Below, piece after piece: positions 1 to 24,022 of a DNA stretch of 24,608 nt. Each line of letters opens with the position of its first letter. The stretch's first letter is position 1. The stretch covers positions 246,712-271,319 of the forward strand of contig WELB01000185.1 of NCBI GenBank assembly GCA_009602725.1, written 5' to 3'. The DNA is from Spirogloea muscicola (Eukaryota > Streptophyta > Zygnematophyceae > Spirogloeales > Spirogloeaceae). A model generated the notes under the pieces. It was not told where the DNA came from. It worked only from the letters and a program-made list of their open reading frames with translations, and did no database searches. The translations under genes were made by a program, and so were the position numbers.

Positions 1-497
1 GGAAGCGCGGCCAGATTGACTGGTGGCTGGGAAAGGCCAGCCCAAAGGAATGGACAAGGTCTGAAGGAGCCGGAGTGCGAAGGACTAGACTAAGACATCA
101 GCCAGGGAACGCTCAGTAACCTCTAGTCAGGAGATGCAAGTCTGAGTAGCTAGCCGGCGGAAAGACGTCGCCCTGACGGAAGCCGGAGGCCGCCACCAAA
201 GCTCGGCCTGTTCGCGCAAGTGAACCGTGAAGGCAAGGGACCGCTGCATCGAGATGGCCAAATGCATTCGGAAGACTTGAGCGAGGGACCCGGCGACGTT
301 AGAGCCGGGCTGCTCGCCCTGCTGCCCGAGGCGGCGGGCCGCTGCACGTCGCGCAAGGCGGTGAAGCAAGTCAATCCATTTCGAGCCAGAGGCTCTGTGC
401 ACGTCGACTGCCAGTGGAACAAACTCGTCTCCCACCAGGTGGTCCGAGTACTTCTGTTCCTTTTCACCCGCCGCTTGGCCGACTGCGTAGCCTGTAG
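1..497 (-). mobile_element. 5'-truncated LINE-like element, subfamily F2: nuclease C-terminus plus 3' UTR
   Basis: Read on the minus strand, 497 to about 200 encodes the end of a retroelement protein: a K..KYSD segment, then EFVPLAVDVH, matching EFFPLAIDTH in the better copy at 1513-2193, then a CHxC-free basic tail with MQRS. The frame shifts by one base near 195-200 and continues as ASGFRQGDVFPP...DLHLLTRGY, with stop TGA at 113-115. The 3' UTR (112 down to 1) carries the hairpin GGGCTGG/CCAGCC at about 25-43 and ends in a GCGCTT motif shared by other F2 copies. It is truncated at the 5' side near 497. No intact protein is possible. Subfamily names are mine. Confidence 0.75.
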
Positions 498-550
498 AGG
501 ATAGGGAACAGACCTTGTTCATCTCCAAAACTCCCGGCTGGCCTCTCACA
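498..550 (+). repeat. Truncated F2 hairpin fragment
   Basis: Plus-oriented remnant of an F2 3' UTR: GACCTTGTTCAT is followed by GGCTGGCCTCTCAC. The 5' hairpin arm and loop are present, but the 3' arm is replaced by the minus-oriented F1 tail that starts at 550. The break falls in the hairpin loop. Confidence 0.5.
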
Positions 551-722
551 AGAAGAAAGTGCTCGCTCATTGAGGATAGGGGCCGGAAAAGCCAGCCCAA
601 CAAAGAATGAACTAAGGACGAGAAGGGGGCCAGGGGAAGAAAGCGCGGCCAGAGGGGAAGTGCTAAGGAATACAAGCACACAAAGAAACAAAGCAGCTAC
701 GAATCACTCAGTAACTCCTGAT
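550..722 (-). mobile_element. F1 3' UTR fragment
   Basis: Minus-oriented F1 tail. Signature parts in sense order: CACTCAGT complement next to the lost stop (about 705-712), GTTTCTTTGTGTGCTTG, a GGCCCCCTTCTCGT stretch, the hairpin at 580-597 and the ATGAGCGAGCACTTTC end at 550-575. About 13 bases of F2-like GCGCGGCCAG are embedded near 641-652, so this copy is itself patched. The hairpin has one C-to-G·U-compatible change (GGCCGG) and still pairs. Confidence 0.7.
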
Positions 723-905
723 AGGCTCTCACAACTTGCTGTCCGGCAGCTAGTCTTTCGGATGCGGCTTCTCACTCGTGGTTATTGAGTGATTCATACT
801 ACCCCATATTTGTGACAGAGCCTTTTGGCCTCTTCAAACCCTGTCAACTCTTCCCGGGCGAGCTGTTCACAGTCCTTGCCCACATTGGGAGAGCCACTTC
901 TCTCT
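723..905 (+). mobile_element. Degenerate plus-oriented retroelement tail
   Basis: Bases 754-786 read VFRMRLLTRGY then TGA, the family C-terminal peptide, on the plus strand. A degenerate 3' UTR follows, with GGGCGAG, TTCACAG and CATTGGGAGAGCCACTTCTC resembling the tail end CAATGGGCGAGCACTTTCTTC. It lies 5'-end to 5'-end with the minus-oriented F1 tail at 550-722, so GAATCACTCAGTAAC and GTTATTGAGTGATTC form an inverted pair. Confidence 0.6.
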
Positions 906-1004
906 ACAGCCCCGCCTCCTTTTGGAAGAGCTCAAAATTTCTTCCAATTTAAGCCAAGTACGCAGTTCAGGCAAAAAGCTACTGCAGAAAGCGGCTCCAT
1001 AAAA

Positions 1005-1170
1005 TGAAAGGTGGCGGCAGCCGCGACGGCCAGCGGCGCCGTGGCGCCACGTCCCTGTCGCCCAGACCGCCGCCAGCGGCCACGCTGGCCGCACCGGCGT
1101 CGGCAGCCGGCCGCCGCCACCGCCGGCAGCCGGCCGCCGCCGCCGCCCGCCGCAGATTTGGTTATGCGCT
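1005..1170. repeat. CCG-rich imperfect tandem repeat
   Basis: A GC-rich stretch in which GGCAGCCGGCCGCCGCC occurs twice about 25 bases apart, surrounded by CCG/CAG runs. Open frames through it are low-complexity and show no protein family. Bases 906-1004 and 1170-1336 hold nothing I recognise. Confidence 0.4.
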
Positions 1171-1336
1171 TATTTCAGCGGCGCGCGCGTCCGAGCAAGA
1201 ACAGAAAAGGCGCGCGGGGCGCATGAAACGAGAGGGAGGCCAATTCAAGCCAAACCATTATTCAGGCAGAGTCTAGGGCAAACTAAACAAGGCTACATAA
1301 TACGGCTACCTAAACTAAGGTGCCTGACGTGACATT

Positions 1337-1357
1337 AGTACCCACGAGTGAGCACAA
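1337..1357 (-). mobile_element. Isolated ORF-tail remnant (LTRGY-stop)
   Basis: On the minus strand this short stretch reads VLTRGY followed by TAA. It abuts the 3' end of the large F1 copy that begins near 1358. It is the C-terminal end of an older element into which the F1 copy seems to have inserted. Sequence below it (1260-1336) is presumably that element's 3' UTR but is too diverged to assign. Confidence 0.45.
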
Positions 1358-2215
1358 AGCAAGAAGAAGAAAGACGCAAGAAGCAAGCGCTCGCCCTTGA
1401 GGAAAGGGGCTGGAAAAGCCAGCCCAAGAGAATGGACAAAGTACGAGAAGGGGGCCCAGGGGAAGCGCTAAGGAGAACAAGCACAAGAAGAAACAAAGCA
1501 GCTACGAATTACTCAGTAACCCCTGCTAAGCAGCCGCAGATCAGAGAAGCCAAGCTCCTGGAAGTGGATTCCCTGGCCAGAGCCAGAGGCAGCAGCGAAA
1601 GCTCTGCCGGCACGCAGGTGCAGCGCGCGGGCCATAGACCTCTGCAGCGAGACGGCCGCGCGCATGCGGTACACCTGCGCAAGCGACCCGGCTGCAGGAA
1701 AGTCCACCGGCTCCCCATGGAAGCGGCGGGCGATGGCGTGGCGGGCGAGCTGGTTGAGCAGCTCGAGCCACCGAGCGCCCAGCGTCCCATGGGTGTCAAT
1801 AGCCAGCGGGAAGAACTCGTCTTCCCGCGGATGATCAGCATAGTTGAGCTCTTTAGCCCGAGCGGCGCAGGCGACTGCGTACCCAGGCTTGATGGCACAT
1901 TGGGCTGGGTGTGAGCGGTCGTATGCGTCAGTAGTTACCACGTCCAGAATAAGACGTGGCCCGCCTGCCTGTGGGGTGGCCACCAGGTCTACACGACGAG
2001 CGTGGAGACCGTCGGCCCTTTGCTGGAGCTGCATGACGGCGGAGTTCTCCGCTGCCACCAAGAAGCCAGCCTCCACCAGGATGCCATGCATCGCATCCCG
2101 GAGGCGGTTGTGGGCCGCTGTCCGCTCTCCGCCGTGGAAACAGCGCAGACCATGAGCAGCCAGCTCTCCAGGCTCGGCCCGCGCTCGCCACACTCACATT
2201 GACGGACGCCATGGA
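1358..2215 (-). mobile_element. Largest F1 element copy (3' 850 bp)
   Basis: This is the longest retroelement remnant. From 2215 down it holds a zinc-knuckle-like segment, the nuclease-like domain and family tail (separate entry, 1513-2193), and an F1 3' UTR from 1512 to about 1358. The UTR hairpin at 1407-1425 is a perfect 7-bp GGGCTGG/CCAGCCC stem. Sequence above 2215 does not match other copies, so the 5' truncation is placed there. No reverse transcriptase motif is seen. Confidence 0.75.
1513..2193 (-). pseudogene. Retroelement protein C-terminus: zinc knuckle plus PD-(D/E)XK-like nuclease (226 aa remnant)
   Basis: Seen: HGLRC at residues 14-18, RTAAHNRLRD (24-33), RVDL with D69, LILDVV with D84, AKELNY with K114, EFFPLAIDTH (126-135), LQRSMARALHLRAGRA (183-198) and the end SDLRLLSRGY. 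A CECG pair lies just upstream in another frame (about 2195-2206), so a C-x-C...H-x3-C knuckle is split by a frameshift or stop. Known: LINEs with a restriction-like endonuclease (R2, NeSL and CRE type) carry CCHC, an RHN-like motif, then (K/R)-PD, D and K of the PD-(D/E)XK fold in this order at the C-terminus. Inference: this is that domain. The initiating ATG is fortuitous; the real protein began far upstream. It could instead be a related non-LTR clade. Confidence 0.6.
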
Positions 2216-2489
2216 GACATGGCGGCGGCAGGCCCAGGAGCCGGTGGAAGGGGCTGCGAAATACCTCGTCCGGGAGAGTGAGGGCGGGGCAAGAAGTGGC
2301 TCTTTCTAAGCGGGCCGAGGCCTACGAGCTCCCTGTCCTGGTTATCAGGGCGGTCGCCACTAAAGCGGCTCACCAATTGGGGCAAGCGCTGTGCAGGCAA
2401 GCACGCAGGGTCTGCTTTGCGGTGACGGTCCCGACAAGGAGAAGCGGCTGTTCCAAATGGCCGCATGGCCTTTCCAGGCTAGACCCATA
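2216..2489. other. No recognisable gene
   Basis: GC-rich sequence with open frames on both strands that show no known domain. It may be the older 5' continuation of the element at 1358-2215, too decayed to align by eye. Confidence 0.3.
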
Positions 2490-2800
2490 AAGCTTGGAAA
2501 GATCGTTCTCTTTCTGGGCTAGCCAATCACAGCCATCGCCCTCTACTGGGAAGAGTCTTTCACTGCGGCCTCCGGCATTCGTCAGGGGGATAGTTTTCCG
2601 GCAGCTAGTCTGTCGGATGTGAGTCTCCTCACTCGTAAGTACTGAGTAGTTCATCCTCCCCCCGTTCTGACATAGCTTCTTCAGGCCCCTTCGTAGCTGC
2701 TAAGCGGTTTTTGGCTCCTTCGAATCTTTGTCAGTCCTTTTTGGGCGGGCACTTCACAGCCCTTGCCCCCATTGGGAGTGCCACTTCTTTCTTTCTTAGA
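2490..2800 (+). mobile_element. Degenerate plus-oriented tail with hairpin-module fragments
   Basis: Bases 2510-2563 carry GGGCTAGCCAATCACAGCC and CATCGCCCTCTACTGGGAAGAG, the hairpin module in its CAGCCATCGCCCTCT variant. Bases 2608-2643 read VSLLTRKY then TGA, a decayed form of the family tail. The following UTR (2680-2795) keeps GGCTCCTTCGAA, CCTTTTTGGGCGGGCACTTCACAGCCC and CATTGGGAGTGCCACTTC in F1 order. Confidence 0.55.
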
Positions 2801-2807
2801 TACTGGT

Positions 2808-2880
2808 TGCCATGAGAACTCTCCTAATGGGGGCCAGGGCTGTGAAAAGCCAGCCCCAAGACAATTGACAAAGATGCCAT
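2808..2880 (-). repeat. Minus-oriented hairpin-module fragment
   Basis: CTCCTAATGGGGGCCAGGG, GCTGTGAAAAGCCAGCCCC and GACAATTGACAAAG form the minus version of the 3' UTR hairpin module. It faces the plus copy that ends at 2800, making an inverted pair. Bases 2881-3004 hold nothing I recognise. Confidence 0.5.
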
Positions 2881-3004
2881 GGGGTACGATGCGTGGGCCT
2901 TCACGACGCAGCACACAGCTTGTCATTCGTTTCTCTTCCTTTTCTGTAGTCCCGCTTTACATGGACCTTCTTCACTTCGTTGCGCCGGCGTCTCACTGCC
3001 ACTG

Positions 3005-3195
3005 CCTTGGATGAGAAGAGCTGTTTATCTCACAGCCCTCGCCCTGTTTGGGGAAACTGCTTCCTCTTCAAGACCGGCATTTTCTTGTAGGCATCTTCTT
3101 GGCTAATTGGCATTTGTCCTCTCTCTTCGGGCTGCCAGCCCCACTTCTCTATGGACGCGCACTTTCTTCTCAAGCCATCTGCCCCAATCGGAGGG
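3005..3195 (+). repeat. Degenerate plus-oriented 3' UTR fragments
   Basis: Two damaged modules: CTCACAGCCCTCGCCCTG near 3030-3047, then CTCTTCGGGCTGCCAGCCCC and CTATGGACGCGCACTTTC at about 3124-3168, which parallel the hairpin and the CAATGGGCGAGCACTTTC end. The hairpin loop is deleted here. Confidence 0.5.
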
Positions 3196-3207
3196 ATGTG
3201 GTTAAGA

Positions 3208-3364
3208 AATAAGCGCGGCCAGATTGACTGGTGGCTGGGAAAGGCCAGCCCAAAGAATGGACAAGGTCTGAGGGAGCCTGAGTGCGAACGACCAGGACTA
3301 AGACAGCAGCCAGGGAAAGCTCAGTAACCTCTAGTCCAGGAGATGCAAGTCTGAGTGGTTAGCG
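3208..3364 (-). mobile_element. F2 3' UTR and ORF-tail fragment
   Basis: Nearly the same as bases 3-155: GCGCGGCCAGATTGACTGG, the hairpin at about 3231-3251, the AAAGAATGGACAAGGTCTGA stretch, GGGAAAGCTCAGTAACC with the stop complement, and the start of the DLHLLTRGY region. A one-base insertion (GTCCAGGAG against GTCAGGAG) breaks the tail frame. Homology ends near 3364. Confidence 0.7.
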
Positions 3365-3463
3365 GGGGTGGTGGCCGGAGTGGCCGAGCGCGACCCGTTC
3401 CTGAAAGAAGTAGCCGTTTCGACCAGCGCCGCCATCACACGCGCCCAGTGCTCGAGAGCCCAG

Positions 3464-3974
3464 TACAGTCAAACCTTATTATAGGCACGTCGGCCGGTTT
3501 GGCGAAAACATGTGACTATATCGAGGTGTGCTTGTTCGTTGTAGAGGCACTATTGCCCCCAAATGTGCTTCTACCGTGACAATCAGCAATATATCAAATT
3601 ATATTGAAAATGGCTTTTTGGGTTTAGGTCTAGGGTTAGGGTTTAAAAACTAGACCCTAACCCTAGACCTCAACCCTAAACCCCACACCCTAAACCCTAA
3701 ACCTCAACCCTAACCCCTGTAGAGAATATGATAGATATGTTGATTTGTTTTCATATAGGCACTTCTAGTGGGGGAATCTGCCCCGAAAAACTGTGCCTGT
3801 ACATACAGGCACGTTCCTGTATCGAGTCACATTTGCCGGGGGAAAAAAGTGCTTCCCGCAAAATGGTGCCACTATCAAGGTTTTGCCCTAATGTGCCTAT
3901 ATCGAGAGGTGCCTATAACAATGGGCCCCTATCCTCAATGGGCGAGCCCCTTTCTATAACAAGGTTTGACTGTA
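3464..3974. mobile_element. Tc1/mariner-pogo-type MITE with TA target duplication
   Basis: Bases 3466-3487 (CAGTCAAACCTTATTATAG...) and the complement of 3951-3972 (CAGTCAAACCTTGTTATAG...) form terminal inverted repeats with one mismatch in the first 19 bases. Both ends are flanked by TA (3464-3465 and 3973-3974), as expected for this superfamily. The TIR start resembles pogo-like plant MITEs such as Emigrant (CAGTAAAACC). The 507-bp interior has no transposase and contains several subterminal TATCGAG/GTGCCTATA motifs. It is a non-autonomous element. Confidence 0.8.
3620..3717. repeat. Interstitial telomere-like tract, inverted
   Basis: Degenerate TTTAGGG units run on the plus strand from 3620 to about 3644, then switch to CCCTAAA orientation from 3653 to 3717. 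The switch is a palindrome: AGGTCTAGGGTTAGGGT faces ACCCTAACCCTAGACCT across an 11-base loop. The tract lies inside the MITE. TTTAGGG is the common telomere unit of plants and many green algae. Confidence 0.75.
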
Positions 3975-4300
3975 GATTGATGCGGCGCGGGGGGTAGCGG
4001 CGCAGACCCACAGCAGGGAGGGGCCTGGTAATGGACTGAGGCAAGCGCGGGGAGGAGGGCGAGAAGGGAAGGAGGGGCGGGGGGCCCGGCCCGGGCGGGG
4101 CCCGAGACCAGCGGAAGGGCCGACGGATTGCCTGCCATGGCTGGCCCGCCCCCGAGCTCGCTCCCCCCCGGGCGGCCGCCATGGCGGGCCCCGCCCCGAG
4201 CTCGCCCCTTCCCGAGCTCTCCCCCATGGCGGCCATTCACATCTACTGAGCCATTCGCAGCCCCCGGCCCCTTTGATGGAGCCCACTTCGTCACTGAGCT
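3975..4300. other. GC-rich region with a minisatellite-like repeat
   Basis: CCATGGCTGGCCCGCCCCCG (4136-4155) and CCATGGCGGGCCCCGCCCCG (4180-4199) are each followed by AGCTCGC and a C/T-rich run. A third CCCCATGGCGG occurs near 4223. Open frames on both strands here are low-complexity shadows. Confidence 0.4.
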
Positions 4301-4302
4301 CC

Positions 4303-4452
4303 CAGCCCTCGCCCTCTGCTGGAAGAAGAGTACTAGAAGAGCCTCCATCCCAGCCTCTCCCGCCGTGGCCTCGCCGCGTGACCGCCGCGGGGGCTGAGAC
4401 AGAGGCTGAGGTAGAGGCGAGACTCTTCCAGCAGAGGGCGATGGCTGGGAAT
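4303..4452. repeat. Inverted repeat of the hairpin module
   Basis: The left arm CCCAGCCCTCGCCCTCTGCT (from about 4299, continuing GGAAGAAGAGT) is the reverse complement of the right arm ACTCTTCCAGCAGAGGGCGA (about 4421-4441, continuing TGGCTGGG). Only one substitution and a 3-base indel separate them, and the loop is about 90 bases. The right arm runs on into ATGGCCAGCCCAGAAAAAG, the hairpin of the retroelement tails. Bases 4453-4685 are GC-rich without a recognised feature. Confidence 0.6.
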
Positions 4453-4685
4453 GGCCAGCCCAGAAAAAGCCCTTCCCCCCCCCCCTTCCCTCCTCCTCCG
4501 CCGCCCAAACTCTGCTGCTGGCTGCCCGCCGCAGTACTCCTCGCGGCCGTCGCCGCGGCGCTGCTTCCCAACACCGCGCCTCCCTGCGTGGGCGGCCCCA
4601 ATGGTAGTCTCCGGCTCCCGCTCGCCCCGCTGCTCCAGCCCGCCTGGCTCTGTAGCTGCCTCCGCAGTCTGAGCTGCAGCAGATC

Positions 4686-5485
4686 GTGGCAGCTGTGGTA
4701 ACCCTCATCTCGGTACTGCTGCGCTTCTCGTCAGCTTGCACTCGCAGCAGGTTCTTACAGCCTGGCTGCGGCAGTAGTCATAGGTGGTCGCAGGCTGCCC
4801 GGCCAGCTACAATCATGAGTACCGTGCTGACCTCATGTGCACGGCGGCAAAGTGCAGTGTGCGGGCTGTACGAGTTGGTTTTGGAGGATCTTGGCGTCTT
4901 GCCGATGCATGTCATCCTCACCAACAAGGACATGCTATTGTATATCGTCCGCTCGCATGTTGGCGACACACGCATCCACACGTCTGGCATACTCCATTGA
5001 GCTCAACATGCACACCCTTGTGAAGCGCGGCCTTGAGGTGCAGAGTGCCGACATCAGCCGCGCCACTGCTGACGCGGAGCAACTCCACAAAGGTGCTGCT
5101 GTCCTTTGCTTTGCTTTGCTTATTGGACTTTAAAGTCACGCATTGGCAGGAGACTGATGGCATTTTCCGTTGGGGTGGATTTGGCAGCACATAGACGGTG
5201 ACCAACACCTTCTGCTCCGCGGGCCACACGCTGCCCACCGACCTTGTGGTCAATGGTGGTGGCACGTTCTACCTCGGGCCCAACTAAACCAGCAGTTACC
5301 TCTCTGTCCGCAAGTTCGACGCGTGCCTCGACGGATCATGCGATTGGGTCGTCAACCAGACCATGGGCAGCTCTCGCTTCTATCTAGCTCCATTTGCCTG
5401 CCCAATGGCAATTTTGCGTTCATTGGCGGTTCGCAGAATAATATCAGCGGATGGCAAGAATATCCAGAATAACCCCATGTTTGAG
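4686..5485 (+). pseudogene. Glyoxal oxidase-like pseudogene, N-terminal and central part (copy 1)
   Basis: Copper radical oxidases of this family are secreted and oxidise aldehydes to acids with H2O2 release. Seen: a possible signal peptide from ATG 4686 (MAAVVTLISVLLRFSSA), then YELVLEDLGVLPMHVILTNK, matching the family N-terminus. The frame then shifts near 4970 (LAYSIELNMHTLVKRG). Next come TNTFCSAG with the cysteine expected to cross-link the radical tyrosine (5212-5214), an in-frame TAA (5285-5287), CDWV and SSRFY with that tyrosine (5381-5383). A one-base frameshift at about 5384 follows, then LPNGNFAFIGGS and NNPMFEV. A stop plus at least two frameshifts inside contiguous motifs cannot be explained by introns, so this is a pseudogene. 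Confidence 0.7.
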
Positions 5486-5995
5486 GTGTGCAGCTCTCAC
5501 TCGCCCCTTTGCCCCCTGCACTCCATCTACTCGTCTCGTTCTCTGGCCGTCCCTCTTTTATCTCACGCTCTTCTTGTCGCCCCGACCCTCATCTTTTCTG
5601 AATCTCCTCCGTGGGGCTCTTTCCCCAGTTCCCTTGTATTGTTGCACAATTCACTTCCCCCTGCCGCCGAGCCCATCGGATGGACAGACAATGTAGAGAA
5701 CATTCGAAAGCATATCAACAGGCAGATGTACAGCAGGAGTGATGCAAATTGACACCCAAGGTGGTTCTTTCTAAATCGTATCTGCTGGGCTTTGTCCCGA
5801 CCTGCTTTCTGTTGGAGAAGACAGAAGCTTGCTGATCCAGGGTACCAATTCCGCGGTAGCTGGCTACTTCTTATCATATGAATCCAATTATCAAGGTACC
5901 ATTCCTCCTTTCTGGCGTTACTGAGGCCAATACAAATACCTACAAGTGTTAAATTTTGTATTAGCCTCTCATGGAGCAGCACCTCACCATATGGT
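5486..5995. other. No recognisable coding sequence between oxidase fragments
   Basis: From GTGTGCAG at 5484 the sequence is pyrimidine-rich and intron-like. The middle of the oxidase (the remaining Kelch blades) is missing. GGTACCA(A/T)TTCC occurs twice (about 5841 and 5896). Nothing else is assigned. Confidence 0.3.
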
Positions 5996-9394: not shown

Positions 9395-9404
9395 ATCGAG
9401 AAGC

Positions 9405-9935: not shown

Positions 9936-10290
9936 AACTTTGTTCTTTTTCTGGGCTGGCCTCTCCCAGTGGCGGTCTCCGGCTTCCGTCAGGGCGACGT
10001 CTTTCCGCCTGCTAGCTATCCAGACTTGCATCTTCTGACTAGAGGTTACTGAGAGTCCTCTTGCTCTCGTACTCTGTTCATTCTCTTTTTTGGGCTGGCA
10101 TTTCCAGCCCCTATCCTCAAAGGGCGAGCACTTTCTTCCTGCTTGAGTCTTAGTCCTTAGCACTCCGGCTCCTTCAGACCTTTCCCATTCCTTTGGGCTG
10201 GCCTCTCCCAGCCACCAGTTACTCTGGCCGCGCTTGCTTCCCAGCCACCGCCCTCTCCTGGAAGCGTCTTTCTCACAACGTCCTTGGCGC
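9936..10290 (+). mobile_element. Plus-oriented F2 ORF tail with compound F1 and F2 3' UTRs
   Basis: A hairpin (CTGGGCTGGCCTCTCCCAG, about 9949-9967) is fused directly to an ORF end reading VSGFRQGDVFPPASYPDLHL then LTRGY and TGA (about 9972-10051). Then comes an F1-type UTR with its hairpin at 10098-10117 and a GGGCGAGCACTTTC end, followed by an F2-type UTR with hairpin at about 10195-10215 and GGCCGCGCTTG. A CAGCCACCGCCCTCTCCTGG module ends at about 10275. This compound tail is about 290 bases upstream of the BSL start codon, in the same orientation. Confidence 0.7.
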
Positions 10291-10487
10291 CCGGCAGCTG
10301 CGTCCGCTGTCGAGGAATTGGCGATGGGGGCCGGATGGCGTACTTGGCGGGGTTCGTCGTCAGCTAAGTCCCCGTCAACTGGCGGGTTTGGTGAGCCGCC
10401 CCGGCGCGGAAACCGTCCGCGAATGCATGCCAGCCGCCGGCCCCTCCCGGCTGCACGTAAGTGTGGGCGGGCGGCCTCCGGAAGCCC

Positions 10488-10577: not shown

Positions 10578-13500
10578 ATGGCGGCACCGGCCGCCGCCGC
10601 CGCCCCGCCGCGCGCCCGAGGAGCCCGCGGCGCGCCGCACTGAGCGCTGCAGGAGCGCCNGGCGTTCGCGCCGCTGCAGGGGCACGGCGAGACGCCGGGC
10701 CCGCGATGCGGCCACACGCTGACGTCTGTGGCGGCGGTCGGCGAGCCCGGGGCCGACGACTACGTCGGCGCGCGGCTGATCCTCTTCGGCGGCGCCACCG
10801 CGCTCGAGGGCAGCACCGGCCCCCAGGCCAGCGCCGGAGGCGCCGCCGGGATACGTGAGCGCCAAGGACGCTGAAAACTGGCGCGCCATTGCTTAGGGTT
10901 TCCACTTGCCAGGCTTCCCAATGATCCATTGGTCTCAGAGCGGCCGTGCTGATGGCCATAGAAGCACGAGCGCCATCTATGCTTAACGAGGAGCTGCTCT
11001 ATCCTGACGGTGTAGTGGTACGGGGAGGACGCAGATGAACTGTGATCCCCGTGACATAGCCATTCACGGTCACACAGCTCGGTCCTGCTGGCAGGTCTGG
11101 CGGGCGCGACAGCGGACATCCACAGCTTCGATGTCCAGACCAGTACATGGTCGAGGTGAGCACGGCCTCGCGGTCAAGCTGCTGCAGACTTGCACTTAGC
11201 TGTCATGCATTCTGCATGCCGCGACTGTCTGCTCAGAGACTTCTGGTGCACTTGTACCAGAGGATGGCAGCGTAACCTAGTGGTGAGAGCCATTAGATGA
11301 TGCAAGTTCACAATGCACCAATGTCAATTGCACCTCGAGCCAACTTGCTCACAACCAGAAGAGAGGGAGGGCAGGAGTCTGCTCGTTACATGGACGACAT
11401 GCTATTGTACCAGAGATTGTGGAGTGTGGGGATCGCCCTGTTATGATTTCCTAGCCCATGTAGCCTTTTGCCTAGCTTCATCGCAGTGACACTTGTCTCA
11501 TGCAGGTTCCAACCAGTGGGGGAGCCACCTTCACCCCGGGCTGCACATGCTGCTACTGCTGTGGGCACAATGGTTGTCATTCAGGTCAGCTGCTGCAGCC
11601 AACAAGTCGAAGCCCTAGTTTGAGCTTCTTGTGTGACAGAACAGCCGTTTGGTTTGTCCAGATTATGTGGGTCAACAGAGTGCAGATTTACCTCCTTAGC
11701 TATTGTGTTGCAACCTGCTGTTGTGACAAGAGTTTAGCTAGCAGGATAAAGAAGCTGGCATTAAGGTTGACGTGAAAATTGTGTTGGCAACACCAGAACT
11801 GTGTTGTCGAAAACAAGACTTCTGCTCATCTGCAGACGAGAACCACTGTGTGCAGCTTGTGCAGATGGCTCTCAAGGAATACACTCAACCAGTGTGGCCG
11901 GTAAATTGGGGCAATTGTAGCTCATAGCTTATGCTGCATTTGTGTCTAATGCAGGGTGGTATTGGACCAGCTGGTCTCGCTACGGACGATCTGCACGTGC
12001 TTGATCTGACTCAGACAAAGCCTCGCTGGCACCGGTGAGGACTTACAACCTCCTACATAAATGGTGATGAATCAAGTCTGGTGCACAGACCTGATCTGCT
12101 GAACACCTTGCCTGCACTGTAAGTCATCAGCAGACCTAAATCAACGTGCTGGCGCTTTGCAGTGTGGTAGTGCAGGGTGCTGGGCCTGGACCCCGGTATG
12201 GCCACGTCATGGCATTGGTTGGCCAGCGATTCCTTCTGTCAATCAGTGGCAATGATGGTATGATCCTCAATCCTGCAAACTTCTTCTCTCCCATGCCTTC
12301 CCTGCCGAGATCCATTTGAGCATCTGGTTGGACATCTGGTTATGTCCCACATCACAAACGTGAGCTCAATTTTCCGTGTATTCCAGTATGGAAGGCATTC
12401 TACGCTTCCGGGTCAAGGTATATCATTTTTAAGAATATGTGGGCACCTGCCTGACCATGGCTTGGTTTGACAGGGAAAAGGCCATTAGCAGACGTATGGG
12501 CCCTAGATACAGCTGCAAAACCTTACGAGTGGAGGAAGCTTGAACCAGATGGCGAGGGTCCTCCTCCGTGCATGTATGCAATCTTGTTCCACTCAGTTAG
12601 ACACTTGCATTTAGAGACAGTATGTAGAGCTGCAAATGTTCTACTTTTGGTGCATTATGTTGTACATGAATTTCATAGCTGCAGCAACAAACTTCTCAAG
12701 TCAATGAATCAAGTCAAGGGAGTCCCAATCGCCCCTTGTCTGTTAGGTATGCCACGGCAAGCGCTCGTTCAGACGGATTGTTGCTGTTGTGTGGAGGGAG
12801 GGATGCGAGCAGTGTGGTATTGCTTGAACCCAGTACTTACAATTGCATAGCTCCTGCTAATGCATGATGATGACTTTTGGTCTCTTGACAAGATCAGTCC
12901 CTGTAAGCAGGACATTCTAGCAACCCTGGAACATTCTTGCATGTCCTTGTCTTCTTGGGTGTCCTTGTCTTGTGGGGTGAGGTTGCCGAGGTTGACCATT
13001 TGCATCTTTTTTGCAGCCGCTGGCTGGTGCATACGGGTTAGCAAGACACCGGGACGGGCGATGGGAGTGGGCAATTGCTCCTGGCATTTCGCCGTCTGCC
13101 AGATACCAGCATGCAGCGGTAGATTTTCAAGAAACATTCCTGTCATTGCACGCTCTTAGCTCTAGTGGGCAAGCCTATCACACGGACTGCGATACTTCTC
13201 TTTATATATCCACCATGTATTGACATAAGAGTAACTACTTCAAAGATTTCTTAATGGCTGCTGAAGCAAAGACTGGGCTGCACTTCTTCGCAGCCTTGAT
13301 CACATAGCTGCTGGGTTGCATAAAGTTGAATGGTCAGTGCGATTTGACACATTAATGTGGATGTCTTTGCGGCAGGTATTTGTGAATGCAAGATTGCATG
13401 TCTCAGGAGGTGCTCTGGGAGGTGGCAGAATGGTGGAAGATGCCTCAAGTGTGGCAGGTACTGTTCCAGTCTCCTACTCAGCTGTGTCTTATGCGACTTG

Positions 13501-18465: not shown

Positions 18466-18700
18466 TAAAGACTCTTCTCCTTAGAGGGCGATAGCTGGTG
18501 AGTGGCCAGCCCTACTTAAGTCAATTGCAGGGCCCAGAAAAGCGTTGAAGTAAAGAAAAGCGTTGAAGTACATGGCGCCTCTTCCAAAGGAAAGGTGGGA
18601 AGAGCCACTCACGTCATCCAAAGAAACAGCTCTTCCAATACATGGCAGTGGCTGATGAAAGGCAAGGAATATACAAGGTCTGCAAGGGCCGGATGGAGCA
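18466..18700 (-). repeat. Diverged minus-oriented hairpin modules
   Basis: AGACTCTTCTCCTTAGAGGG, CGATAGCTGGTGAGTGGCCAGCCC (18469-18512) and CAGCTCTTCCAATACATGGC, AGTGGCTGATGAAAGGCAAGG (18629-18668) parallel the modules at 4421-4465 and 9843-9890. Between them GAAAAGCGTTGAAGTA is repeated twice, 18 bases apart (about 18537-18570). Bases 18700-18960 contain no recognised gene. Confidence 0.5.
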
Positions 18701-18960
18701 AAAAGCAGGGGGCGGGGACTGTTAATGTCCATCCCGAAGTGAAAGGTCAGAAGGGGCCGGACAAAACACCGAGAAGGCGCGCGGGGAGGGCATGAAAGGC
18801 TACATATATTAGAAAGAGAAAAGCCGGAGAGTGCCGTGAATAAAGAGGCAAGTGCTCGGCCATAAAGAAGAAGAATTTCGTGTATTTGAAACAAACGAAG
18901 GCTAAATGGCCAAGTACAAAGGCAAGCACATCTGAAAACCTACGTAAGCTACAGCAGATT

Positions 18961-19193
18961 GACCCGCCAGTTCATCTGGCCGCGCTTGTCTATTACCCGC
19001 TCAGTAACCACGGGTCAAAACATAGAGGTCTCGAATCGATGCCTGAATAGGGGCTGGGAAGAGGCCAGCCCAAAGGAATGGACAAGGTCTGAAGGAGCCG
19101 GAGTGCGAAGGACTAGGACTAAGACATCAGCCAGGGAACGCTCAGTAATCTCTTGTCAGGAGATGCAAGTCTGAGTAGCTAGCCGGCGGAAAA
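18961..19193 (-). mobile_element. F2 3' UTR and ORF tail
   Basis: From 19045 to 19193 the order is hairpin (19050-19071, GGGGCTGGGAAGAGGCCAGC), AAAGGAATGGACAAGGTC, GGAGCCGGAGTGCGAAGGAC, CTCAGTAATC with the stop complement, and the DLHLLTRGY region (GGAGATGCAAGTCTGAGTAG). It breaks at GGCGGAAA (19193), where an F1 tail begins. A plus-oriented fragment CAGTTCATCTGGCCGCGCTT at 18970-18989 faces it, giving an inverted F2 end pair. Confidence 0.7.
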
Positions 19194-19358
19194 GAAGAAA
19201 GTGCTCGCCCATTGAGAATAGGGGCTGGAACAACCAGCCCGAAAAGGAATGAACAGAGTACGAGAAGGGGGCCATGGGAAGCGCTAAGAAACAGAAACAA
19301 AGCAGCTACGAGACACTCAGTAACCCCTGCTAAGCAGCCGCAGATCAGAGATGCTGAA
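19194..19358 (-). mobile_element. F1 tail joined to the F2 ORF tail
   Basis: It starts with AAGAAGAAAGTGCTCGCCCA at the F2 breakpoint. The hairpin at 19221-19240 has loop variant GGAACAACC. GAATGAACAGAGTACGAGAA, GGGGGCC and the F1 UTR follow, and the ORF end DLRLLSRGY lies on the complement of about 19318-19352 with its stop at 19318-19320. It stops after a few more codons. Confidence 0.75.
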
Positions 19359-19450
19359 AAGGGGCTAGGAAGAGGGGCTGGGTAAGCAAAGCCAGCCCCT
19401 ATGGGGGCAAGGGCTGTGAGAAGGCAGCCCGAAAAGAATGGGTAAAGATG
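19359..19450 (-). repeat. Extra hairpin modules
   Basis: GGGGCTAGGAAGAGGGGCTG is followed by GGTAAGCAAAGCCAGCCCC, then CTATGGGGGCAAGGGCTGTG and AGAAGGCAGCCCGAAAAGAA. At least two partial hairpin modules abut one another between the F1 tails on either side. Confidence 0.55.
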
Positions 19451-19464
19451 TGACAGTGATTGGG

Positions 19465-19660
19465 AGAAGAAAGTGCTCGCCCATTGAGAATAGGGGCTGG
19501 AAAAGCCAGCCCAAAAAAGAATAACAATAGACGAGAAGGGGGCCAGGGGCTAAGAAAACAAGCACACAAAGAAACAAAGCAGCTAAGAATCACTCAGTAC
19601 CCCTGCTAAGCAGCCGCAGATCAGAGATGCTGGGCTCCTGGAAGTGGGTCCCCTGGCCAG
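19465..19660 (-). mobile_element. F1 tail
   Basis: Minus-oriented F1 with GAAGAAAGTGCTCGCCCATT at its 3' end, a perfect hairpin at 19493-19512, the F1 UTR, the stop complement near 19596 and ORF end ...SDLRLLSRGY. The ORF runs up to CTGGCCAG at about 19660, where an F3 tail is joined. Confidence 0.75.
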
Positions 19661-20035
19661 AAGAAGGTGCTCGCCCATTGAGAAGACAGAAAGAAGGTGC
19701 TCGCCCATTGAGAAGAGGGGCTGGCAAAGCCAACCCAAAAAGAATGGACAATGTTCAAAGCCAAAGAAAGAGGTGCTGAAAAAGGACTACACTACAAAGT
19801 GCAAGATGGTGCAGAGGGAGATGCAGATGGCTGCTCAGTATCCACGTGTGAGCAACAGCAGATCAGAGTAACTCGGAGCAGGAGAAGCGGCACTTTGCCG
19901 AGACCCGGAAGCAGCTGCCATAGCACGGCCAGCCCGCGCGTGGACCGCATGAGCCAAAGAGCGCTGCAGCGAGACCGCCAGCCTCATCCGAAAGACCTGC
20001 GAGAGGGATCCGGCAGCATTGAAGCCTAAACAGAA
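19661..20035 (-). mobile_element. F3 element copy (left arm of palindrome)
   Basis: The minus strand encodes FRMRLAVSLQRSLAHAVHAR, then AGRAMAAASG and SYSDLLLLTRGY, with stop near 19858. It is followed by an F3-specific UTR with hairpin 19717-19736 (GGGGCTGGCAAAGCCAACCC, a G·U-compatible change) and a GTGCTCGCCCATTGAGAAG end that is present twice (19666-19686 and 19696-19716). The preceding residues GSLSQVFRMR match GSLAQVYRMR in the large F1 copy. It is truncated near 20035. Confidence 0.75.
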
Positions 20036-20546
20036 GACAGAAAGCGCGGCCAGATTGACTGGTGGCTGGGAAAGGCCAGCCCAAAAGAATGGACAAGGTC
20101 TGAGGGAGCTTGAGTGCGAGGGGCTGGCAAAGCCAACCCAAAAAGAATGGACAATCTTCAAAGCCAAAGCCCTGGCCAGTGCCAGAGGCAGCAGCGAGGG
20201 CTCTGCCGGATGATTTCGGATGAGGCTGGCGGTCTCGCTGCAGCGCTCTTTGGCTCATGCGGTCCACGCGCGGGCTGGCCGTGCTATGGCAGCTGCTTCC
20301 GGGTCTCGGCAAAGTGCCGCTTCTCCTGCTCCGAGTTACTCTGATCTGCTGTTGCTCACACGTGGATACTGAGCAGCCATCTGCATCTCCCTCTGCACCA
20401 TCTTGCACTTTGTAGTGTAGTCCTTTTTCAGCACCTCTTTCTTTGGCTTTGAACATTGTCCATTCTTTTTGGGTTGGCTTTGCCAGCCCCTCTTTCTTTA
20501 GGGGCAAGCCTTCTACTCTTCTCAATGGGCGAGCACCTTCTTTCTG
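19687..20546. repeat. Near-perfect palindrome with arms of about 307 bp
   Basis: Bases 19687-19993 are the reverse complement of 20214-20546. By eye I find no substitution; the only difference is a 26-base insertion in the right arm (AGTAGAAGGCTTGCCCCTAA plus AGAAAG). The arm lengths, 307 and 333, differ by exactly 26. The spacer 19994-20213 holds an F2 3' UTR fragment (20040-20118), an F3 hairpin (20119-20139) and a piece of F1 ORF (about 20170-20210). Each arm is an F3 copy, with their ORF 5' sides facing the spacer. Confidence 0.8.
20214..20546 (+). mobile_element. F3 element copy (right arm of palindrome)
   Basis: Plus strand reads FRMRLAVSLQRSLAHAVHAR and on to SYSDLLLLTRGY, with TGA at about 20369-20371. 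The F3 UTR follows, with the hairpin at about 20470-20489 and a CTTCTCAATGGGCGAGCACC end. A 26-base insertion sits just after the hairpin. The frame is intact over this short distance. Confidence 0.75.
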
Positions 20547-20682
20547 CCGGCCCGCAGTTGCAGCGCGCGGGCCATCGACCGCTGCAGCGAGATGGCCAAG
20601 CGCATCCGGTATACCTGCGCTAGCGACCCGGCTGGGGAGAGGCGGAAATGACGGTGCAGAGTGCTGCCCAGAACACATCAGA
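20547..20682. other. F1 ORF-like fragment and unassigned sequence
   Basis: CAGTTGCAGCGCGCGGGCCA, TCGACCGCTGCAGCGAGATG and GGTATACCTGCGCTAGCGAC parallel bases 1618-1690 of the large F1 ORF in minus orientation, so this is an internal ORF piece (SLAQVYR...LQRSM region). The rest, to 20682, is unassigned. Confidence 0.5.
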
Positions 20683-20862
20683 AGAAAGTGCTCGCCCCCT
20701 TGAGAATAGGGGCTGGAAAAGCCAGCTTAAAATAGAATGAACAGAGTACGAGAAGGGGGCCAGGGGAAGCGCTAAGAAAACCAAGCACACACAGAAACAA
20801 AGCAGCTACGAATCACTCAGTAACCTCTGCTAAGCAACCGCAGGTCGGAGATGCTAGGCTCA
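20683..20862 (-). mobile_element. F1 tail
   Basis: Minus strand ends EPSISDLRLLSRGY with TGA at 20817-20819. The F1 UTR follows, with a hairpin at 20709-20728 whose outer pairs are weakened (AGCTT). It forms the left half of an inverted pair with the plus-oriented F1 tail at 21040-21328. Confidence 0.75.
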
Positions 20863-20877
20863 TCGAGGAAAGGGCGG

Positions 20878-21036
20878 GCTCGCCCATTGAGGATAGGGGC
20901 TGGACAAGCCAGCCCAAAAAAGAATGAACAAAGAACGAGAAGGGGGCCAGAGGAAAGGGCTCGCCCATTGAGGATAGGGGCTGGACAAGCCAGCCCAAAA
21001 AAGAATGAACAAAGAACGAGAAGGGGGCCAGAGGAA
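20878..21036 (-). repeat. 81-bp tandem duplication of the hairpin module
   Basis: GCTCGCCCATTGAGGATAGG with the hairpin, GAATGAACAAAGAACGAGAA and GGGGGCCAGAGGAA occurs at 20878-20958 and again from 20959, essentially identical. Both copies are minus-oriented and lie between the inverted F1 ORF tails. Confidence 0.8.
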
Positions 21037-21039
21037 GCC

Positions 21040-21328
21040 AGAGGAATGCGCCTGGCCGTCTCGCTGCAGAGGTCCATGGCCCGGGCGCTGCACCTTCGTG
21101 CCGGCAGAGCCCTCGCTGCTGCCTCTGGCGCTGGCCAGGGGACCCACTTCCAGGAGCCCAGCATCTCTGATCTGCGGCTGCTTAGCAGGGGTTACTGAGT
21201 GTCTCATAGCAGCTTTGTTTCTGTTACTTAGCGCTTCCCCAGGCCCCCTTCTCGTACTCTGTTCATTCTTTTTCGGGCTGGTTGTTCCAGCCCCTATTCT
21301 CAATGGGCGAGCACTTTCTTCTTCTAAG
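21040..21328 (+). mobile_element. F1 ORF tail and 3' UTR
   Basis: Plus strand from 21047 reads MRLAVSLQRSMARALHLRAG, then AASGAGQGTHFQEPSISDLR and LLSRGY with TGA at 21196-21198. The UTR has the hairpin at 21275-21294 (GGGCTGGTTGTTCCAGCCCC) and ends CAATGGGCGAGCACTTTCTT. It is joined near 21325 to CTAAGAAACCAAAGCACAC, a minus-oriented piece of another F1 UTR. Confidence 0.75.
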
Positions 21329-21440
21329 AAACCAAAGCACACAAAGAAAGATCATCGCCCGCCCGGAACGGCGCTATCACGGGGGCGGGGAGGGGGCCGG
21401 CCCACCGATTGGCGACGGCGAGGTGGCGGGCAGAGAGACC

Positions 21441-21492
21441 AAAAACTTTGGACCATTTCTCGATTTGTGCGTGTTATCCTTGCGCAGGGGCC

Positions 21493-21524
<32 letters not shown>

Positions 21525-21546
21525 ACGGATGTCCCAAAAAACAAAC
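21441..21546 (-). ncRNA. U6: U6 spliceosomal snRNA gene
   Basis: The minus strand matches plant U6 almost throughout: GGGACATCCG, AAAATTGGAACGATACAGAG with the ACAGAGA box (21504-21510), the AGC triad, GGCCCCTGCGCAAGGAT, CACGCACAAATCGAGAAATG and GGTCC, ending in a T run (21441-21445) that fits Pol III termination. Two features differ from the usual plant sequence. The 5' stem-loop GUCCCUUCGGGGAC is replaced by GTTTGTTTTTTGGGAC, which can form only a wobble-rich stem. GGATGACACG reads GGATAACACG in the internal stem-loop. The 5' end (21546) is inferred from the stem-loop. A TATA-like box sits at Pol III distance. Confidence 0.9.
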
Positions 21547-21563
21547 TTGCCGGGGGGCAACTG

Positions 21564-21571
21564 CCTATATG
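21564..21571 (-). promoter_or_regulatory. TATA-like box of the U6 gene
   Basis: The minus strand reads CATATAGG with its centre about 22 bases upstream of the inferred U6 5' end, suitable for a type 3 Pol III promoter. AATCCCATC at 21602-21610 further upstream faintly resembles the plant upstream sequence element (TCCCACATCG). That second match is weak. Confidence 0.5.
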
Positions 21572-21795
21572 AACAGCTAAGAAAGTGTTGGTCGAGAAGA
21601 AGATGGGATTAAGTTTGTCGACGACCGGGGGGGGCGGTGGGTCCGGCGGGGCCCGCACCAAACTGCGATTACCTCGATGAGCTGCCGCCGAAGCCGCCTT
21701 CTCAACGGCGGGTTGGTGGTCGGTGGTGGGAGAAGTGACCCCGCAAAGTCGGTGACGCTTGCCGGGCACGCGGTCGCTTTGGCGGCTCGGAGTAG

Positions 21796-22205
21796 AAGAT
21801 GAGCGGCAGCTGATATAAACGAATCGGCTGTAAACTGCCAGCCAGATGCATACAGGTGTTCATGACGGAGCCGAAGGCTAGGTAGACAGGGCGCCCTCAA
21901 TACCCCCATGTCAGCAGTAGGAAGTCAGATGAGCTGAGGGGAGGAAGAGCAACCCCGCTGCGCAAACCAGAGGCTGCTGCAAGAGCGCGACCAGCCCGGC
22001 GATGCAAAGCAATCGCCTGGGACCGCTGTAGGCACATAGACAAACGCATCCGGTAGCAGGACACAAGACCCAAAGGCACCGAGCCTCCGGGAAGGGCTGC
22101 ACCTCGAGTAAGGAGCGCAAGTACGCGGACACCCTCCCGGCGATGTCTTCGCCGCCCTCGCCATTGACGTTCACGAAAAGTAACTTTTCCTTCTGCCACC
22201 AACTA
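21796..22205 (-). mobile_element. F4 element copy 1: ORF tail and 3' UTR
   Basis: Minus strand: a frameshifted nuclease-like part (NVNGEGGEDIAGRVSAYLRS, about 22174 downward), then MRLSMCLQRSQAIALHRRAG, RALAAASG and SSSDFLLLTWGY with stop TGA at about 21897-21899. The F4 UTR reaches about 21796 and has a hairpin GGCTGGCAGTTTACAGCC at the place where F1 to F3 carry theirs. The TRGY end is changed to TWGY. Bases 21796-22053 are duplicated at 22930-23187. Confidence 0.7.
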
Positions 22206-22229
22206 GAGCTCGCCCAGCTTTCTGTTGCA

Positions 22230-22315
22230 AAGCATTAGCCGGGGGCCAGGGGAAGCACTAAGAAACAACAAGCACAAATAGAAACTAAGCAGCTACGGAG
22301 CACTCAGTAGCCCCT
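22230..22315 (-). mobile_element. F1 3' UTR fragment
   Basis: GGGGGCCAGGGGAAGCACTA, GAAACAACAAGCACAAATAG, AAGCAGCTACGGAGCACTCA and GTAGCCCC match the ORF-proximal part of the F1 UTR in minus orientation. It directly faces the plus-oriented ORF fragment beginning at 22322. Confidence 0.6.
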
Positions 22316-22321
22316 GCACGC

Positions 22322-22475
22322 GCCCGTCAGTCTTGCTGCAGCGGTCAATGGCACGCGCGCTGCATCTGCGTGCCGGTCACGCATTGGCTGCAGCCTCTGG
22401 CCCTGGTCAGGGGGACCCGCTAGCCAGAGATTAGTTTCTCCGACCTTTGGATGCTCAACAGCAATTACTGGATGC
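22322..22475 (+). mobile_element. Decayed plus-oriented ORF tail
   Basis: Reads LLQRSMARALHLRAGHALAA, then ASGPGQGDP and, after a frameshift near 22425, FSDLWMLNSNY. The stop codon is replaced by TGG. This is the inverted partner of the F1 UTR fragment at 22230-22315. Confidence 0.6.
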
Positions 22476-22544
22476 TTCGTGGCTACTTGATTTCACTGTT
22501 CAGCAAAAACAGCTCCTCCGGATTTTGGCTGTGAAAGTGGCTCT

Positions 22545-22860
22545 TCACAAGCAGCCACTGCTCTCCGTATGGAAGCGCGGCCATATGAAGAGCAGTGGCT
22601 GTGAGAGGCCAGCCCAAAGGAATGGACAAGGTCTAAAAGCGCGTCCATATGGAGGATAGAGGAAGCGCGGCCAGATTGACTGGTGGCTGGGAAAGGCTAG
22701 CCCAAAAGAATGGACAAAGTTTGAGGGAGCCTGAGTGCGAACGAGCCACTGCTCTCCATAGGAGAGCAGTGGCTGTGAGAGGCCAGCCCAAAGTAATGGA
22801 CAAGGTCTAAAAGGTGCCGGATGGCACAAGCAGCAAGATATACTAAACGCTAACACGTCA
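22545..22860 (-). repeat. Three hairpin modules in a row, one with its own inverted partner
   Basis: Hairpin modules lie at about 22587-22635 (GCAGTGGCTGTGAGAGGCCA), 22660-22740 (F2 type, GCGCGGCCAGATTGACTGG then GGTGGCTGGGAAAGGCTAGC) and 22763-22815 (GCAGTGGCTGTGAGAGGCCA). GAGCCACTGCTCTCCATAGG and AGAGCAGTGGCTGTG at 22744-22778 form an additional perfect short inverted repeat. A related pair flanks 22553-22600. Bases 22861-22925 include a weak ORF-tail trace (CTCAGTAACCTCTATTCAG). Confidence 0.6.
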
Positions 22861-22929
22861 GCAAGTAGGCTCTCAGTAACCTCTATTCAGTAAACGCATG
22901 GTCGGATAGCTAAAAGACGTCGGGTAAAA

Positions 22930-23187
22930 GAAGAAAGCGGCTGCTGATATTAAAAAATCGGCTGTAAACTGCCAGCCAGATGCATACAGGTGTTCATGAC
23001 GGAGCCAAAGGCTAGGCAGACAGGGCGCCCTCAATACCCCCGAGTCAGCAGTAGGAAGTCAGATGAGCTGAGGGGAGGAAGAGCAACCCCGCTGCGCAAA
23101 CCAGAGGCTGCTGCAAGGGCGCGACCAGCCCGGCGATGCAAAGCAATCGCCTGGGACCGCTGTAGGGACATAGACAAGCGCATACGG
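22930..23187 (-). mobile_element. F4 element copy 2
   Basis: A direct duplicate of 21796-22053 with few substitutions. The minus strand reads MRLSMSLQRSQAIALHRRAG and on to SSSDFLLLTRGY with stop, the intact version of the tail, followed by the F4 UTR and its GGCTG/CAGCC hairpin. It is truncated at the same point (about 23187) as the duplicate homology, then joins AGACTCTTCTCAGTAGAGTG, a diverged hairpin module (23208-23245). Confidence 0.7.
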
Positions 23188-23349
23188 GAAAGAAGAAAGA
23201 CTCTTCTCAGTAGAGTGCGACGGCTGTGATTGGGCAGACCGCAAAAAACAAGAATGCACAATATTTGAAGGGGCCAGAAGAGAAAGCATTAGAAAAGCAT
23301 TAGAGCAACACAGCGACTCAAGTGGCCACTGAGTGCTCAACATCGAGGG

Positions 23350-23612
23350 ACAAGCGCGGCCAGTTTGACTGGTGGCTGGGAGGAAGGAAGTGCCCGCCCA
23401 TAGAGAAGAGGGGCTGGCAAAGCCAACCCAAGAAGAATAGACAATGTTCAAAGCCAAAGAAAGAAGTGCCGAAAAAGGACTACACTACAAAGTGCAAGAC
23501 GGTGCAGAGGGAGATGCAGAGGGAGATGGAGATGGAGATGGATGCAGGTGGATGCTCAGTAGCCACGTGTGAGCAACAGCAGATCAGAGTAACTCGGAGC
23601 AGGAAAAGCGGA
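23350..23612 (-). mobile_element. F3 tail joined inside an F2 hairpin loop
   Basis: An F2 end (GCGCGGCCAGTTTGACTGGT then GGCTGGGA, 23354-23381) stops in the hairpin loop and passes directly into an F3 end (GGAAGTGCCCGCCCATAG). The F3 hairpin is at 23410-23429, followed by the F3 UTR and the ORF tail SYSDLLLLTRGY on the complement of about 23556-23605. A GGAGAT microsatellite (about 23509-23541) expands the F3 UTR relative to the two other F3 copies. Confidence 0.7.
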
Positions 23613-23621
23613 AAAGCAGAC

Positions 23622-23800
23622 CTGAAGGAGTGGCTGGGAGAGGCCAGCCCGAAGGAATAGACAAGGACTGAAGGAGCCGGAGTGCGAAGGATCAACATCC
23701 CTGTTGAGCAGCCCGCAAGTCAGCGAAGCTAGTCTTCGGTCAGCGGGTCCCAGCGGGTGCCACCGCCCTCTCCCGAAAAGCGTCTTCCTTCCAGAACAAG
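23622..23800 (-). mobile_element. F2 hairpin module and decayed ORF tail
   Basis: The hairpin GTGGCTGGGAGAGGCCAGCC (about 23630-23649) is followed by GGAGCCGGAGTGCGAAGGA. The complement of 23695-23735 reads like ADLR..LLNRG with a one-base shift, a decayed family C-terminus. The plus-oriented module CCACCGCCCTCTCCCGAAAA lies at 23760-23779. Bases 23800-23957 have no recognised feature. Confidence 0.5.
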
Positions 23801-23957
23801 GAATCGACAAACGGGCCAGAGGAAAGGGTTTCCGAGATAAGAAACAAATGTAGGCCAAACGGCAAAAAGGAGAGAGCGCAAAAGCAGCTGGTCGGAGAAA
23901 CTAGTCTCTGGGTAGCGGGTGTAACCAGCATCGACAAGGTCCTAGGGGCCAGCCCGG

Positions 23958-24022
23958 AAAGAAGAAAGTGCTCGCCCATTGAGAATAGGGGCTGGAACAA
24001 CCAGCCCGAAAAAGAATGAAGT
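23958..24022 (-). repeat. F1 hairpin module
   Basis: GGAAAGAAGAAAGTGCTCGC, CCATTGAGAATAGGGGCTGG, AACAACCAGCCCG and AAAAAGAATGAA form an F1 3' end with hairpin 23988-24007 and the rest of the UTR missing. This is the last element copy before the GC-rich right end. Confidence 0.65.

Follow-up and report, generated by a model that had tools for sequence, protein, structure and literature searches.

Among the non-long-terminal-repeat (non-LTR) retrotransposons known as long interspersed nuclear elements (LINEs), those with a restriction-like endonuclease (RLE), such as R2, NeSL, and Utopia, are regarded as an older branch (PMC4640811 and PMC5678591). The RLEs of LINEs contain a PD-(D/E)XK core, and the first lysine of their KX2KY motif is described as catalytic, with the second being less conserved (PMC5678591). 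Utopia elements target U2 small nuclear RNA (snRNA) genes (PMC4640811), and R2 is under development for gene insertion (PMC12222951, PMC11331408). Zepp elements of Coccomyxa and Chlorella and Zepp-like elements of Chlamydomonas form arrays that consist mostly of 5'-truncated 3' ends accumulated via nested insertion (PMC8226300). Stringent-type LINE proteins, such as that of ZfL2 from zebrafish, are reported to recognize a stem-loop in the 3' tail (PMC4176376). Here, we analyzed a 24,608-nucleotide (nt) stretch of DNA from Spirogloea muscicola (assembly GCA_009602725.1, contig WELB01000185.1, forward-strand positions 246,712 to 271,319), which we refer to as the window. The window most probably contains 3' ends from five or more subfamilies of a single LINE group, whose protein ends with an RLE domain, an MRLAVSLQRS block, and an SDLxLLTRGY peptide.

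A preliminary description of this DNA had reported at least a dozen fragments, in both orientations, that end in a common peptide preceded by the MRLAVSLQRS block. Using a six-frame search with up to four substitutions, we found 18 tail-like places on both strands; in 40 first-order random sequences as long as the window, the mean was 0.45 and no sequence had more than 3. Fifteen of the 18 end in L-x-(R/W)-G-Y-stop, a short pattern that has no further match in the window and that random sequences produced with a mean of 0.03 (maximum of 1 in 40 trials). Of the other three, two read LTRKY-stop and LTRDY-stop, and one reads RGTE with no stop. We located the MRLAVSLQRS block at 10 places. One of the 10 (10662-10697), which sits in the GC-rich DNA of a phosphatase gene, was taken as unrelated. 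Further upstream, PLAIDTH-type blocks were found on the minus strand at 1786-1815, which is the PLAIDTH reported for the longest copy, and at 394-423. A third match of this type, at 22148-22177 on the plus strand, is antisense to a subfamily 4 copy and was taken as chance.

To what degree this coding end is constrained can be read from the substitutions between subfamilies. Over the last 50 codons, eight between-subfamily pairs gave nonsynonymous divergence (dN) values of 0.28 to 0.39, while synonymous divergence (dS) was 1.20 and 1.60 in two pairs and saturated, and thus not computable, in the other six. Third codon positions predominate among these differences; subfamilies 3 and 4, for example, differ at 15, 9, and 37 first, second, and third positions, respectively. 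The two longest copies, compared over 101 codons, gave a dN of 0.38 and a dS of 1.99. Within subfamilies, dN/dS was 0.48 (subfamily 1) and 0.26 (subfamily 4), each from few changes. Ungapped identity across ten subfamily pairs was 0.48 to 0.63 in the 60 nt before the stop and 0.22 to 0.40 in the 60 nt after it. This pattern indicates that the shared peptide is a real protein end under purifying selection, which implies that the elements were mobile and protein-coding as the subfamilies diverged.

The BLAST map of the copies shows retained 3' ends and 5' ends lost at many different points. Judged by eye, several tail-only copies have their 5' end no more than about 40 nt before the tail. Some fragments are the two parts of a copy that another copy has interrupted. 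The clearest case is a subfamily 3 copy on the plus strand (20214..20544) that lies within a minus-strand subfamily 1 copy. The left half of the interrupted copy (20543..20634, reference positions 500-591) runs to reference position 591 and the right half (20170..20209, reference positions 584-623) starts from 584, and this overlap is an 8-bp duplication, CCGGCAGA; four extra bases are present at the 5' junction. In a second case, a subfamily 1 3' terminus (10065..10138, plus strand) interrupts the 3' untranslated region (UTR) of a subfamily 2 copy (9969..10242, plus strand), whose two pieces align to adjacent reference stretches (the left to position 421, the right from 430) with no clean duplication. 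A further subfamily 1 copy, which begins at MRLAVSLQRS (21046..21323, plus strand), lies between opposite-strand subfamily 1 3' UTR pieces, one of which is only a 26-nt weak match.

Shared end words of at least 7 bases flank 15 of 36 copies; among 3,000 random pairs, 227 share such a word. Since a number of the shared words belong to the 3' ends of neighboring elements, we discounted the count and relied on the 8-bp case. Beside it, there are three further candidate target duplications, all for minus-strand copies: GTGAGAG, repeated at the ends of a 5'-truncated subfamily 1 copy (550..726); CATGGCA, at both ends of a copy that consists of the 3' terminus alone (2809..2883); and TAACCAC, at both ends of a subfamily 2 tail region with its 3' UTR (3211..3366). 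Taken together, the common 3' ends, the variable 5' ends, the nested insertion with its 8-bp duplication, and the purifying selection identify these as 5'-truncated non-LTR retroelements, as had been proposed, and the array is the product of LINE retrotransposition with strong 5' truncation. We found no sign that the elements prefer to land in their own copies, since another element adjoins the 3' side in 16 of 34 cases, compared to an element cover of 63% (the 34 are drawn from the 35 best terminus matches; 1-68 was excluded because its flank is beyond the window). The same 35 matches are unevenly oriented, with 27 on the minus strand and 8 on the plus strand, nested copies among them not being independent.

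Two repeats within the array are exact. The arms at 19713-19993 and 20214-20494 form an inverted repeat of 281 bp that is 100% complementary, while other copies nearby are much diverged; this repeat is a recent duplication or gene conversion. At 20876-21036, an 81-bp 3' UTR unit is tandemly duplicated, with its two copies matching at 100%.

We distinguished five subfamilies by the body of the 3' UTR. The preliminary description had counted four with different UTR bodies; the bodies do differ, but four of the five (subfamilies 1, 2, 3, and 5) reach the same 3' terminus of about 75 nt with a GGCTGG/CCAGCC hairpin. This terminus consists of TTGTCCATTC or a sequence near it, a T-rich part, GGGCTGGC-loop-CCAGCC, and a short last segment that closes with TTTCTTC or CGCTTCC; the 3' UTR of the longest copy (1378..1512, minus strand) ends in GAGCGCTTGCTTCTT. 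A loose pattern of the terminus gave 26 matches, whereas 50 first-order random sequences averaged 0.8 and never exceeded 4; the match at 13276-13295 is probably chance. A terminus model (R1), trained on 26 copies, gave 45 matches at E values up to 1, and the 37 with an E value below 0.001 comprise the 26 training copies and 11 more. Because R1 carries a 3-pair RNAalifold stem that was chosen by the program and that we do not trust, it works essentially as a sequence model. In the hairpin, the 5-pair stem is nearly invariant. A possible outer helix of TTGTCCATT with AATGGGCGA is 70% paired, with some slid versions scoring equal or higher, and its number of double changes was reached by 15 of 500 shuffles and its covariation score by 51 of the 500, so support for it is weak.

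The longest copy belongs to subfamily 1 and carries a 226-codon frame (1513..2193, minus strand) with the endonuclease-like domain, an MRxAVSLQRS block, and the tail FSDLRLLSRGY-stop. Candidate active-site residues D69, D84, and K114 are at the positions previously claimed, accompanied by H14, C18, H28, and Y118. The RLE consensus reads K/R-P-D, 12 to 14 residues, and D/E. In the longest copy the corresponding stretch is R-V-D69-X14-D84, with both acids and the spacing retained and the proline not. The KX2KY motif is present as KEQKY in a frame-broken subfamily 2 copy (1..520, minus strand), which also holds FVPLAVDVH in its endonuclease part, the QRS block, the tail YSDLHLLTRGY, and its 3' UTR. 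The longest copy has KELNY, with the second lysine lost; its order of H-N, R-x-D-X14-D, and K-x-x-N-Y preserves much of that seen in LINE RLEs. Where RLEs carry a basic residue and a histidine at the start of the first helix, it has A-H28-N, in which the histidine is retained and the basic neighbor is absent. The upstream CCHC-like knuckle that had been described holds in part: H14-X3-C18 shares the frame of the domain, but the codons for Cys-X-Cys (2190..2198, minus strand, coordinates set by hand), possibly a zinc knuckle-like remnant, are in another frame, with a TGA between the two pairs directly before the 226-codon frame. The canonical CX2-3CX7-8HX4C spacing was not seen in this sole copy that reaches the knuckle, which is broken there.

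Of the 86 window frames with 100 or more codons, one fits a pattern of the form H..[KR]xD-X12-14-[DE]..Kxx[KN]Y, as do 4 of 200,000 shuffles; this pattern had been relaxed after the protein was seen, and of two R2 stretches tested, one does not fit it. We compared the domain to three solved R2 endonucleases (8gh6, 9nl2, and 9nl3, retrieved with a bait sequence). With hhalign, the motifs were in register and the best alignment was collinear. A fold model from two sequences gave the order helix, three strands, helix, strand, helix. A model from seven sequences was not used (predicted local distance difference test [pLDDT] score of 41).

Several results weigh against the reading of the window as the tails of RLE-bearing LINEs. 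The longest copy is without the proline of PD, a basic residue before H28, and the second KX2KY lysine, and the GXW motif, which follows the fourth strand in RLEs, is one residue longer in both copies that reach it (GARW in the longest, GSKW in the subfamily 2 copy). The profile comparison of the 1513-2193 translation with R2 endonucleases, which the preliminary description had recommended, was not significant: hhalign returned a probability of 0.49 percent and an E value of 0.12, equaled by 10 of 200 shuffles, and an R2 hidden Markov model (HMM) did not separate the window protein from shuffles, 688 of 5,000 of which scored as high. The two-sequence fold job had a mean pLDDT of 48 and a predicted template modeling score (pTM) of 0.46, with its other four models at 30 to 34. 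Foldseek returned no match for this model at an E value of 0.001 or below, the best being 0.066, which is at chance level. No compensatory changes were found among copies in the hairpin stem, and the two subfamily 4 copies were not matched by the terminus model, although a similar hairpin can be seen by eye. The last 22 codons are under looser constraint, with between-subfamily dN of 0.25 to 0.66 and dS from 1.8 to not computable. None of the 31 window proteins in a Pfam scan was a reverse transcriptase (the window has 89 frames of at least 80 amino acids), and no copy extends upstream as an open frame far enough to reach one.

These points qualify the reading in different places. Since the R2 scores are not significant and the fold model is weak, RLE membership is probable and not proven; the motif order, the KX2KY of the second copy, and the secondary-structure order of the model give a good probability that the domain works like an RLE. 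The RLE type assigned earlier thus keeps its motifs and lacks a significant sequence or structure match. That the last residues matter for function is supported by a dN far below dS over the last 50 codons, but the "strict" conservation first described is too strong a term given the last 22. As the stem is conserved without compensatory change, the predicted hairpin is a plausible RNA fold of the terminus, not a proven one.

No relative was found in IMG/VR with either the 226-residue protein or an alignment of seven window pieces, nor in GTDB genomes with the seven-piece alignment, and the exact 3'-terminus pattern found nothing in IMG/VR; the IMG/VR and GTDB scans were seeded from short patterns, so distant relatives would be missed. 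Protein scans of phage and plasmid collections also found nothing, and Pfam and PDB sequence searches gave no relevant match. Presumed consensus sequences for the C termini of animal retroelement proteins can be aligned over their full length to the window protein (BLASTP, 4e-14; hhalign, 98.2% with an E value of 3e-14). They were written down after the protein had been read, and we treat the result as a lead and not as evidence. Their profile found no R2 chain in the PDB, and the sequences matched no Pfam family and found no IMG/VR relatives. In a shallow literature search, which says little, we recognized no published description of this LINE group.

We weighed three other explanations for the array. 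If this LINE group had an apurinic-type endonuclease or none, the C-terminal domain would not be an RLE, and the retroelement reading would stand. We consider this unlikely: neither by sequence nor by fold does the domain match an RLE significantly, and the canonical CCHC, PD, and GXW are not intact, but the order of the motifs, the KX2KY spacing, the collinear best R2 alignment, and the secondary-structure order in the weak model argue for the RLE. If a few old copies had been multiplied by segmental duplication and rearrangement instead of retrotransposition, this would account for the exact 81-bp tandem duplication, the perfect 281-bp inverted repeat, and junctions that look mosaic by eye. 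Such a process is at odds with an 8-bp duplication around a strand-switched insertion and with common 3' ends combined with variable 5' ends, which makes it very unlikely as the source of the array.

Least probable, in our judgment, is that most tail-only copies are nonautonomous elements, similar to short interspersed nuclear elements (SINEs), with a borrowed LINE 3' terminus. Many copies are little longer than the shared terminus of about 75 nt, and several degenerate termini have no recognized coding tail adjacent, as this would predict. However, the mapped copies reach back into the LINE coding sequence and break off at many different points, and ARAGORN found no tRNA gene in the window (a degenerate tRNA-like head would escape it).

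Under the reading of 5'-truncated RLE LINEs, the endonuclease would nick the target DNA, and a reverse transcriptase encoded outside the window would recognize the hairpin terminus of the element RNA. Reverse transcription would begin at the nick and stop early, leaving tail copies mostly of about 50 to 400 nt. The C-terminal block and tail peptide would serve the protein rather than the RNA. The preliminary description was accurate on the sequence and largely so on its kind. The array itself is an ordinary, clear case of LINE tail accumulation, with the peptide common to diverged subfamilies, and the terminus common to four of the five, as a mildly interesting extra. More speculatively, and with considerable doubt, the elements may represent an undescribed green-lineage clade of RLE LINEs with a conserved C-terminal block and tail peptide of its own behind the endonuclease. 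In such a clade, most subfamilies would retain one 3' terminus even though their silent sites are saturated, and one enzyme may mobilize the tails of several subfamilies, filling intergenic DNA.

The remaining mapped copies are as follows. Subfamily 5 is represented on the plus strand by a tail with its 3' UTR (742..903) and by a copy with the tail LSDVSLLTRKY and 3' UTR (2565..2800). All others are on the minus strand. A head-to-tail run of tail-plus-3' UTR units from several subfamilies occupies 19001..19661, and subfamily 3 copies with the tail YSDLLLLTRGY and 3' UTR are located at 19689..20040 and 23383..23611. Subfamily 4 contributes a copy with the tail SSDFLLLTWGY (21802..22210), whose 3' terminus is one of those unmatched by the shared-terminus model, and a second, 95% identical to it, with the tail SSDFLLLTRGY (22936..23187). 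Three consecutive 3'-terminus copies lie at 22569..22814.

Elements cover 28% of the window, with 54%, 54%, and 71% cover in three intergenic blocks and 0% in two gene blocks and in the last 508 bases; the blocks were delimited after the element map had been seen. One gene is galactose oxidase-like, its protein matching Pfam GO-like_E_set. Another has a metallophosphoesterase segment (Pfam E value of 0.033, weaker than Pfam's cutoff), and we take it to be a Kelch-type plant phosphatase. A single N is present at 10660, in the GC-rich stretch that we assign to the start of the phosphatase gene. The sole Rfam match at the gathering score is a U6 snRNA (21442-21546, minus strand; 95.8 bits, whole model covered), which lies in the middle of a retroelement cluster and has a nonstandard pair flagged in its 5' stem. 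At 3464-3974 there is an element of about 510 bp with 21-bp inverted ends (TACAGTCAAACCTTATTATAG and CTATAACAAGGTTTGACTGTA, 95% complementary), which we presume to be pogo/Tigger-like; inside it are degenerate telomere-like CCCTAAA repeats. By its content, the window looks like eukaryotic nuclear DNA (the U6 snRNA and the two genes), and its genes and the CCCTAAA-like repeats point to a probable green-lineage origin.

For annotation, LINE tails explain much of what lies between the genes in this region, and many of the short open frames here are LINE ends and should not be taken as genes. Diverged endonucleases that share one short RNA terminus would also be a natural set for asking how a protein recognizes its own RNA end. 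Compared to known systems, the window has the LINE hallmarks: copies truncated at the 5' side, a 3' end in common, and target duplication, one case of which is clear. Like the R2, NeSL, and Utopia elements, these have a C-terminal PD-(D/E)XK-like domain with a lysine in KX2KY (PMC5678591) and copies inserted with a common 3' end. They differ in having HX3C in place of HX4C, in the loss of the proline of PD and of GXW, and in carrying an additional MRLAVSLQRS block and the tail peptide beyond the endonuclease, with no reverse transcriptase seen in the window. Unlike the surroundings expected for Utopia, the window contains no U2 gene by Rfam at the gathering score. As with ZfL2, a hairpin near the 3' end is common to the copies; its stem is almost invariant here, so that the fold is plausible rather than proven. 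The array resembles those of Zepp and Zepp-like elements in being a green-lineage LINE array of mainly truncated, nested 3' ends. Zepp, however, is grouped with L1 elements (PMC8226300), whereas the array described here adjoins genes and shows no excess of insertion into its own copies.

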